Shown: positions 54,559-61,554 of the stretch, one piece after another
How the letters are laid out: each line of letters starts with the position of its first letter
Numbering within the stretch: the first letter of the stretch is position 1
NCBI GenBank assembly: GCA_004297165.1
Contig: SCUJ01000006.1
Location: 806,001-870,000, forward strand
Direction: 5' to 3'
Length of the DNA: 64,000 nucleotides
From: Gammaproteobacteria bacterium
GTDB taxonomy: Bacteria; Pseudomonadota; Gammaproteobacteria; Eutrophobiales; Eutrophobiaceae
Notes under the pieces: generated by a model
Seen by the model: the letters and a program-made list of their open reading frames with translations, nothing else
Told to the model about the DNA's origin: nothing
Databases searched by the model: none
Program-made: the position numbers and the translations under genes

Positions 54559-55101
54559 TTATTTGCTGGGGAAGCCCAATTCACCCAGGATCCGGGCGAG
54601 GTCCTTCCCTGCATTTTTTACATCCACTTCCTTGTCGATCTTCTGCACTACGCCTTCCTTGTCGATGTAGTAAGTCCAGCGGTTGGTGAAACCCATGGGA
54701 TGCATCACGCCATAAGCCTCGGCGGTCTTCTTGCCGGGATCGGAGAGGATGGGGAATCCCGCGTTGTGTTCAGCCGCGAATTTGGTGTTGTCTTCGATGC
54801 TGTCCACGCTGGCCATGAAATAGGCCACGTCGAACTTCTGAATCTCAGCGGCGCTGTCACGCAGCGCCTTGCATTGCATGGTTCACCCGCCGGTGAAGGC
54901 CTTGGGAAAGAAGGCAATCACCACGGGTTGCTTGCCGCGGAACTGCGCGAGGGTATAGGTCTTCCCGTCCGATGCCGGCAGGCTGAAATCCGGCGCCTGC
55001 TCGCCGACTTCAAGCGCCATGGCGGGCGGGATCAGAAAAGCGACCAGCGATAACCCGGCCGTAAGGATCCGCCGGATGCCCGATGCGAAAAAAATACTCA
55101 T
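54559..55101 (-). CDS. Exported peroxiredoxin, predicted selenoprotein (TGA = Sec73)
   Basis: Two same-frame segments (55101-54886 and 54882-54559) are separated only by TGA at 54883-54885. Read through, they make one 180 aa AhpC/TSA peroxiredoxin: signal peptide (RRILTAGLSLVAFLIPPAMA), QAPDFSLPASDGKTYTL, FFPKAFTGG-U-TMQCKALRDS, then FMASVDSIEDNTKFAAEHNAGFPILSDP and YYIDKEGVV. In homologues the residue after AFTGG is the peroxidatic Cys, exactly where TGA stands. A 7-bp hairpin 14 bases behind the TGA fits a bacterial SECIS. GAGGAGG precedes the ATG. A single-base null mutation is the alternative. Confidence 0.82.
54850..54868 (-). promoter_or_regulatory. Candidate bacterial SECIS hairpin
   Basis: On the coding strand, 14 bases after the TGA, GGCGCTG pairs perfectly with CAGCGCC around the loop CGTGA. 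The apical loop begins 21 bases from the TGA, is five bases long, and has G in its second position, matching the published general description of bacterial SECIS elements (small loop, early G, 16-37 bases from UGA). Confidence 0.72.
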
Positions 55102-55258
55102 AAAGCCTCCTCATTGACTTTAGTGATGGATGGTCGTTATTGCCGCGTTCAAGGGATTCGCCAATACCTTGTCCACGGTTCATGCTACTCCGACTTGTTC
55201 CGGAATGTATAGTTTTATCGTTACAAAAAGCGCCGCCAGTCTGCGCGGGAGGCAGGTC

Positions 55259-55654
55259 TCAACCTTTACGGGATTTGCGCGGCTTTCCTGCCTTGTCGTC
55301 AGACAGAAAATATTTGAGGTGTTCCTCTTCCAGGGCGTCGATGACCGGTTTAAGTTTCTTGGGCAGGACGTATTGCTGATAGACAAGGTCATTATCCGCG
55401 AGTTGCGTGTCCAGATTCTTGAAGATGTTGTTGAGTAGTTGGCTGACCGCGGCTTTCTGCATCCCCAGATCGTCGATCACCTGCTGGCGGGATTGCCCCT
55501 TGACCAGGATGCGGTGCGCAGCCTCCCGCGCCTTGGCCCGGATGCGCAGGCCCCGGATCGCCAGGGAAAATTGTTTTTCGTTCATGCGTGGACCGTGATC
55601 GTCAATCCATTCCAGGATGTCCCCCGAGACAGGGTGTTCCTTAAGCGCATGCAT
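55259..55654 (-). CDS. KorA/TrfB-like transcriptional regulator
   Basis: A 131 aa protein resembling the TrfB/KorA regulators of broad-host-range plasmids: MNEKQFSLAIRGLRIRAKAREAAHRILVKGQSRQQVIDDLGMQKAAVSQLLNNIF is the DNA-binding domain with a helix-turn-helix, followed by YQQYVLPKKLKPVIDALEEEHL and a basic tail. The start may be 55687, 55654 or the MNEKQ codon at 55585. It is divergent from a small gene over a very AT-rich region with an inverted repeat. No other plasmid genes are present, so it is probably a chromosomal relative. Confidence 0.72.
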   Translation of the reverse strand: MHALKEHPVSGDILEWIDDHGPRMNEKQFSLAIRGLRIRAKAREAAHRILVKGQSRQQVIDDLGMQKAAVSQLLNNIFKNLDTQLADNDLVYQQYVLPKKLKPVIDALEEEHLKYFLSDDKAGKPRKSRKG

Positions 55655-55723
55655 TATATACAGCGTCCTGTGGCAATCACTAACCAATTCAATCCGCCGG
55701 GTTGCTCGTTACCTTTTCTATTA

Positions 55724-60333: not shown

Positions 60334-61554
60334 ATGGACGTCTTCGATATTGATGCCTATTCCCCAGCCCAGATGGCGGCGCGCGTGGAAAAGGCCGGGA
60401 TCACCAAGGGCAACCTGGATCCGCTCTCCACACTGGTTCTCGCCATGCTCGCCGGGGCCTTCATCGCCTTCGGCGCCGCGCTGTATACCTTCGTACTGCA
60501 CGATACGACACTGACCCTCGGCCTGAGCCGTTTGCTGGGCGGATTAGTGTTCTGTCTCGGCCTCATCCTGGTCATCGTCGCCGGGGCCGAATTGTTCACC
60601 GGCAACAACCTGATCGTCATGGCCTATGTCAGCCGCAAGGTGACCGGCAGACAACTGCTGAAGAACTGGGCGATCGTCCTGATTGGCAACCTGCTGGGCG
60701 CCTTGATCATCGTGCTGTTCATCTATCTCAGCAACCATCTGAAGACCGCGGGCGGCGCACTGAGCCTGTTTGCGCTCAAGATCGCCGTGAACAAGGTCAA
60801 TCTCACCTTCATGGAAGCGCTGATGCGGGGCATTCTCTGCAATCTACTGGTCTGTCTCGCGGTCTGGCTCTGTTTCAGCGGACGCTCGGTAACGGACAAG
60901 ATCCTCGCGATCCTGTTCCCGATCACCGCCTTCGTCGCCATGGGCTTCGAACACTGCGTGGCGAACATGTATTTCATCCCCGTCGGCCTCGTCATCGCGA
61001 ACGACAACGCCCTGCTGGAGAGCGCCATGAAACTCGCCACTCAGCCATTGGCCACGGACAGTCTCACCATCGGCGCCTTCCTGTGGAACAACCTCGTCCC
61101 GGTGACCCTCGGCAACATGATCGGCGGGGTGTTTTTCGTCGGCGCGGTATATTGGTTCGTCTATCTGCGCCGGAGCGCTGCGGAGCCGCTGCGCAACATC
61201 ATGACCAAGGGCCCGCCCGCGGTCACGCCGGAAACCCCCATTGCCGAGGCCGTGCGGGTCATGCAGGCGCACAACAGCAGCTCCGTGCTGGTAGGTAAGC
61301 TGGGCGAATCGCTCGGCATCGTCGGGGAAGCGGATATCGTCAAGAAGGCCGTGGCGCAGGGGATGAACCCGGATACCACGCCGGTTAGCGCCATCATGAG
61401 CGCGCCGCTCATCAGCGTGGACATCAGGACCACGATCTACGGCGTATATCGCCTGCTGGCGGAGCGGCGGATCCGCCATGTCGTCATCACCGAGGCAGGC
61501 AAACAGGTCGGTTTCATCTCGGTCAAGGACCTGCTGCGCCGGCCGTTGATCTAA
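60334..61554 (+). CDS. Formate/nitrite channel fused to two CBS domains
   Basis: A 406 aa protein. Residues ~1-275 form a FocA/NirC-like channel with six helices and the conserved signature MGFEHCVANMYFIPVGL, including the central pore His, and LGRL-like FCLGLILVIVAGAELFTGNN. Residues ~285-405 contain two CBS motifs (IMTKGPPAVTPETPIAEAVRVMQAHNSSSVLV and IMSAPLISVDIRTTIYGVYRLLAERRIRHVVI). CBS pairs usually bind adenine nucleotides, so channel gating by energy state is inferred. RBS AAGGAG is six bases ahead. Most FNT proteins lack such a domain. Confidence 0.9.
   Translation: MDVFDIDAYSPAQMAARVEKAGITKGNLDPLSTLVLAMLAGAFIAFGAALYTFVLHDTTLTLGLSRLLGGLVFCLGLILVIVAGAELFTGNNLIVMAYVSRKVTGRQLLKNWAIVLIGNLLGALIIVLFIYLSNHLKTAGGALSLFALKIAVNKVNLTFMEALMRGILCNLLVCLAVWLCFSGRSVTDKILAILFPITAFVAMGFEHCVANMYFIPVGLVIANDNALLESAMKLATQPLATDSLTIGAFLWNNLVPVTLGNMIGGVFFVGAVYWFVYLRRSAAEPLRNIMTKGPPAVTPETPIAEAVRVMQAHNSSSVLVGKLGESLGIVGEADIVKKAVAQGMNPDTTPVSAIMSAPLISVDIRTTIYGVYRLLAERRIRHVVITEAGKQVGFISVKDLLRRPLI

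Follow-up and report, generated by a model that had tools for sequence, protein, structure and literature searches.

Selenocysteine (Sec)-containing peroxiredoxins have been known in bacteria since 2001, from Eubacterium acidaminophilum (cited in PMC13188914), and two survey papers count 43 proteins of the type recognised by a TxxU motif in the pfam00578/COG1225 family for the Sargasso Sea and 253 for the GOS data set (PMC1088965, PMC2398784); the first-pass annotation of the DNA analysed here was right that such proteins exist. The 64,000-nucleotide gammaproteobacterial stretch under study (the window) contains a gene for a pfam00578 protein with the sequence T70-G-G-U73, that is, the same TxxU motif. 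The likeness to the Sargasso Sea and GOS proteins extends to the Pfam family, the motif and the marine abundance, and it is a likeness by description rather than by alignment, the consulted parts of those papers making no mention of export or of a second Cys in UxxxC spacing (PMC1088965, PMC2398784). The window gene is probably a relative of the peroxiredoxins counted in these surveys.

Comparison with curated families places the protein close to several systems and inside none of them. It shares a predicted dependence on Sec with PrxU of Eubacterium acidaminophilum (NF040737, peroxi_PrxU), but scores 55.7 bits against that model, which is 233 positions long and has a cut-off of 270. The best NCBIfam model is that of BCP/PrxQ (NF006960, thioredoxin-dependent thiol peroxidase), with which the fold and the PxxxTxxC pocket are shared, yet here too the score (86.5 bits) falls short of the cut-off (140), and the window protein differs in its predicted Sec, its predicted signal peptide and a second Cys at +4 instead of +5. 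The resolving Cys of BCP/PrxQ lies in helix 2, five residues after the peroxidatic one (+5, CxxxxC). By sequence, the best solved relative is AhpE of Mycobacterium tuberculosis (1xxu, 4x0x, 5id2), at about 32% identity; AhpE is also among the best by fold, but it is a 1-Cys enzyme and does not use Sec. None of the NCBIfam models exceeds its cut-off on the window protein, which would explain misannotation. The literature searched, with partial coverage, yielded no description of a periplasmic Sec-peroxiredoxin or of the UxxxC spacing. Overall, Sec-peroxiredoxins being already known in bacteria, the window gene is a well-supported further example, common to many uncultured Gammaproteobacteria, and its less usual traits are the predicted export and the UxxxC spacing.

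In our main reading, which we hold with a probability of roughly 95%, the in-frame UGA is read as Sec73 in an exported enzyme of the PrxQ/BCP-AhpE fold that reduces peroxides. The features of the locus are the following:

55101-54559, minus strand: predicted Sec-peroxiredoxin gene, ATG at 55101-55099, TAA at 54561-54559, 180 aa with Sec73
55106..55112, minus strand: Shine-Dalgarno-like GAGGAGG, 4 nt 5' of the ATG
55015..55101, minus strand: predicted signal peptide, residues 1-29 (MSIFFASGIRRILTAGLSLVAFLIPPAMA/LEVGE), with a basic/hydrophobic/AxA layout by inspection
54885-54883, minus strand: UGA codon of predicted Sec73, peroxidatic position (P66xxxT70xxU73), 74 TGA and 14 Cys genes
54871..54873, minus strand: codon of Cys77, candidate resolving Cys at +4 (UxxxC), present in 73/73 readable Sec and 14/14 Cys genes
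54850..54868, minus strand: SECIS-type hairpin, 7-bp stem GGCGCTG/CAGCGCC, loop CGTGA, the loop 21 nt after the UGA

The first-pass annotation had the span (54559-55101) right and left out the strand, which is minus. Its view that two peroxiredoxin halves lie in one frame, split by nothing other than TGA, holds as well: the TGA at 54885-54883 is the sole interruption of the 180-codon frame 55101-54559, and the Pfam domain AhpC-TSA extends across it (residues 32-154; E 5e-34, 117 bits vs. a gathering score of 26). With TGA taken as U, the protein begins MSIFFASGIRRILTAGLSLVAFLIPPAMALEVGEQAPDFSLPASDGKTYTLAQFRGKQPVVIAFFPKAFTGGUTMQCKALRDS, the stretch FFPKAFTGGUTMQCK being the context of U73. The AhpC-TSA domain, the PxxxTxx(C/U) motif and the active-site Arg together mark a member of the peroxiredoxin superfamily, and the sequence GAGGAG stands directly upstream of the ATG also in three homologous loci (L021, L022, L053). 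An AlphaFold model, built from an alignment of the window and locus proteins with Cys in place of Sec, reached a pLDDT of 89, and the solved folds closest to this model are archaeal Bcp1 and mycobacterial AhpE (BCP/AhpE). Beyond the TGA, comparison with the gene of a genome of the same genus (G001) gave dN 0.077 and dS 1.6; judging from these sequences, purifying selection is acting on the downstream part of the peroxiredoxin. Split ORFs are indeed what is seen in place of one gene, as had been foreseen for standard annotation, which would split or drop the gene although it apparently encodes a working selenoenzyme at the cell envelope.

For the N-terminal signal peptide proposed earlier, a clear n/h/c layout with AxA can be seen by inspection in the window protein and its homologues, the latter having a short basic and hydrophobic N-terminus that ends in an AxA-like site before the domain; the peroxiredoxin is likely a periplasmic enzyme. 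In the alignment of 41 proteins P66, G72 and R141 are invariant and T70 is nearly so. The UxxxC geometry (U73 with Cys77 at +4), also part of the earlier description, is kept in every one of the 87 readable members (73 Sec and 14 Cys), while nearby and ordinary BCP relatives have their second Cys at +5.

The mechanism that we propose has five steps, the last two less certain than the first three. First, SelB with Sec-tRNA(UCA) would bind the hairpin 14 nt downstream, and because of this binding the UGA at 54885-54883 would be read as Sec73; both the machinery and the signal for this step are evident from the sequence. Second, the signal peptide suggests export of the precursor through the general secretion pathway, with cleavage after Ala29. 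Third, family chemistry suggests that Sec73, as a selenolate in the PxxxTxxU pocket with the invariant Arg141, reduces H2O2 or organic hydroperoxides. Fourth, and less surely, Cys77, one turn along the helix, may resolve the selenenic acid as an Se-S bond, a role that its geometry makes somewhat probable. Fifth, and least surely, the Se-S bond might be reduced by electrons from DsbD, perhaps via a neighbouring membrane-anchored thioredoxin-like protein; DsbD is encoded by a single gene in the genome, the adjoining gene specifies a membrane-anchored WCEPC thioredoxin-like protein, and the assignment of either as the reductant is a tentative guess from gene presence.

The first three steps would also be compatible with a 1-Sec enzyme of the AhpE type, in which an outside thiol resolves Sec73 and Cys77 is not the resolver. 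This is a somewhat doubtful reading, though one to be taken seriously, given that AhpE, to which the nearest solved sequences belong, is a 1-Cys peroxiredoxin, and that the +4 spacing is unlike the +5 of PrxQ; it sits less well with the invariance of Cys77 in all Sec and Cys members examined and with the AlphaFold model, which would place Sec73 and Cys77 on the same helix (71-82).

Much of the evidence for the reading of UGA as Sec is comparative. Codon by codon, 88 genes were compared: the window gene, a second copy from genome G017, six Cys homologues found in related genomes, and the 80 loci that ranked best when GTDB genome contigs were scanned. The peroxidatic codon is TGA in 74 of them, TGC or TGT (Cys) in 14, and nothing else in any, the 14 Cys genes bearing out the earlier placing of the homologues' peroxidatic Cys at this codon; the 80 loci were picked as best by similarity, so the Sec:Cys ratio is not a census. 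The in-frame UGA thus aligns to Cys in homologues, which is the Cys/Sec pairing by which bacterial selenoproteins are recognised. Among 144 related genomes the closest matches keep the TGA (G001, same genus, 77% identity; two copies in G017, 72 and 67%), and the same TGA recurs in dozens of independently assembled genomes. Unrelated disruptions elsewhere in the gene, which the first-pass annotation had said would speak against a selenoprotein, were looked for in the relatives and none was found, the peroxidatic codon being TGA or Cys throughout. Internal-TGA matches in four further genomes (G002, G067, G088, G035) were rejected as Sec-peroxiredoxins, their active-site residue being Cys, and are ordinary BCP proteins. 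The homologues come mostly from Gammaproteobacteria MAGs, many of them marine, and Gammaproteobacteria bacterium RIFCSPLOWO2_02_FULL_56_15, a MAG, is the nearest named genome. Members of the family occur in many Gammaproteobacteria of marine and groundwater origin, so that misannotation of this kind is probably common; the 74 Sec and 14 Cys genes form an alignment that can be used to build a selenoprotein model and to study Sec gain and loss.

The 7-bp stem with loop CGTGA that had been described 14 bases past the TGA is borne out by folding: GGCGCTG-CGTGA-CAGCGCC forms seven perfect pairs at -12.1 kcal/mol. A published bSECIS model sets a loop of 3-9 nt, a stem of 4-16 bp, a G in the first two loop positions, a distance of 16-37 nt from the UGA and an MFE of at most -7.5 (PMC13188914), and the window hairpin, with loop CGUGA (G at position 2, then U), 7 bp, 21 nt and -12.1 kcal/mol, falls within all of these limits. 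Taken alone, the hairpin is weak evidence, with a chance rate of 2-6%: among the TGAs of the window, 5.8% fit the bSECIS model and 2.3% have a nearby perfect stem of at least 7 bp. Against shuffles its folding energy does not stand out (z -0.9), an Rfam search of the window gave no match, and pair covariation is not above that of shuffles because four of the seven pairs never vary. Since neither the energy nor the covariation test is significant, the argument for the hairpin is made from synonymous invariance. Codons +6 to +9, which form the 5' stem and loop, are GCG CTG CGT GAC with hardly any exception among the 74 Sec genes; their normalised entropy is 0.013, and the median for the 33 four-codon windows is 0.75. 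Leu and Arg have six codons each. Other conserved codons of the same genes vary synonymously, Cys homologues that read KAIRDS at the protein level draw on several codons at this site, and the search patterns, being degenerate back-translations of peptides, did not force the SECIS codons. The earlier match to the bacterial SECIS layout is upheld by the model constraints and by this invariance together. Weaker hairpins also occur: in L062 and in five Sec homologues whose residue +11 is Asp, about five good pairs remain, at -5 to -5.4 kcal/mol; the hairpin typical of marine homologues, when folded alone, reaches -6.9, short of the energy threshold of the model. The comparative pattern as a whole (74 genes, the same TGA codon, invariant hairpin nucleotides) is far beyond chance.

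The genome that contains the window (3.53 Mb, 13 contigs, 99% complete) has the decoding machinery on whose presence the first-pass annotation had made its prediction depend. A search for selA, selB, selC and selD found selA (584 bits), selB (363 bits, over cut-off) and tRNA-Sec (70.8 bits; anticodon UCA, given as tca by ARAGORN) in a stretch of some 10 kb of contig C2, with selD (363 bits) on contig C13, so that SelA, SelB, SelD and tRNA-Sec, the genomic equipment expected for a bacterial selenoprotein, are all present. The selD gene itself has an in-frame TGA, and it is one of four further in-frame-UGA genes among those examined, the other three being:

L019:6765-8456 (contig C2), plus strand: UGSC-family selenoprotein gene, UGA in the UGSC motif, in the selA/selB/tRNA-Sec stretch
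L019:11839-13674 (contig C2), minus strand: UGSC-family selenoprotein gene, UGA in the UGSC motif, with a signal peptide, adjoining tRNA-Sec
L142, C13:1081693-1081998, minus strand: peroxiredoxin-like gene with in-frame TGA (LGULPCRGHL, UxxC) and a hairpin of the SECIS model

A hairpin fitting the bSECIS model follows the UGA in 4 of the 5 in-frame-UGA genes examined, the exception being one UGSC gene. Of 15 genomes with the TGA gene, 13 have SelA over cut-off, 12 a clear tRNA-Sec (over 60 bits) and 14 one or the other; the one with neither is a 2.2-Mb MAG that is probably incomplete. In the same stretch of C2, a near-copy of the last ~75 selA codons lies about 1 kb downstream of selA (L019:11017-11337, plus strand), separated from it by a gene for a PEP-CTERM-like protein, and looks like a partial duplication.

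These findings bear on three further explanations of the TGA. That the gene is a pseudogene, an ordinary Cys peroxiredoxin whose TGA arose by nonsense mutation or through an error of sequencing, is very improbable: one base separates TGA from TGC or TGT and standard annotation does give two fragments, but 74 genes in many genomes share the same TGA with no other disruption, dN/dS is low on both sides of it, the hairpin nucleotides are invariant, and the Sec machinery is complete in the genome. Scarcely credible is that translation stops at the TGA and begins anew 3 nt past it, at the ATG at 54879, to give two products; a 106-aa ORF does begin there, but we rejected reinitiation because this Met is not conserved (Met in 62/74, otherwise Ile, Leu or Ala) whereas UGA and hairpin are, each Cys homologue is one protein that has Cys at the UGA codon, and a split would, on the structural model, cut the thioredoxin fold at the active-site helix. 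Insertion of another amino acid, through a recoded genome or a suppressor tRNA, can be dismissed with similar firmness, for although a read-through frame alone cannot identify the inserted residue, the genome has tRNA-Sec (UCA), SelA, SelB and SelD, homologues carry Cys at this residue, and the hairpin suits SelB-dependent decoding.

With the UGA read as Sec, the distribution of Sec and Cys forms can be considered. In a tree rooted on BCP, a basal Cys group branches off as sister to all others and a second Cys group is nested among the Sec genes, which would mean that Sec was gained once and given up for Cys once; since a tree in which all Sec genes are held together is not rejected (AU p 0.149), the return is a suggestion only. 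SelA is over cut-off in 0 of 6 genomes with the basal Cys form, and 5 of 7 genomes of the second Cys group keep both SelA and tRNA-Sec. The nested Cys forms are those of L119, L126, L128, L130, L131, L132, L135 and L139, most of these genomes keeping SelA and tRNA-Sec. At a little short of even odds, we would see here a distinct exported subfamily of Gammaproteobacteria (UxxxC) that passed from Cys to Sec once and in which a Pseudohongiella-like lineage went back to Cys, most of its genomes keeping the Sec machinery.

Gene neighbourhoods show some recurrence among the homologues. In many of the loci L064-L140 the gene for an exported protein lies upstream and that for a membrane-anchored protein downstream, followed by a sulfurtransferase-like (two-domain rhodanese) gene and then a TrhO-like rhodanese gene (names given by eye), an arrangement that is not conserved in the window. 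There, the gene upstream of the peroxiredoxin (55259-55687, minus strand) encodes a KorA/TrfB plasmid repressor domain, which is an unusual feature for a contig of 1.8 Mb, and a gene at 60334-61554 (plus strand) encodes a formate/nitrite transporter fused to two CBS domains.
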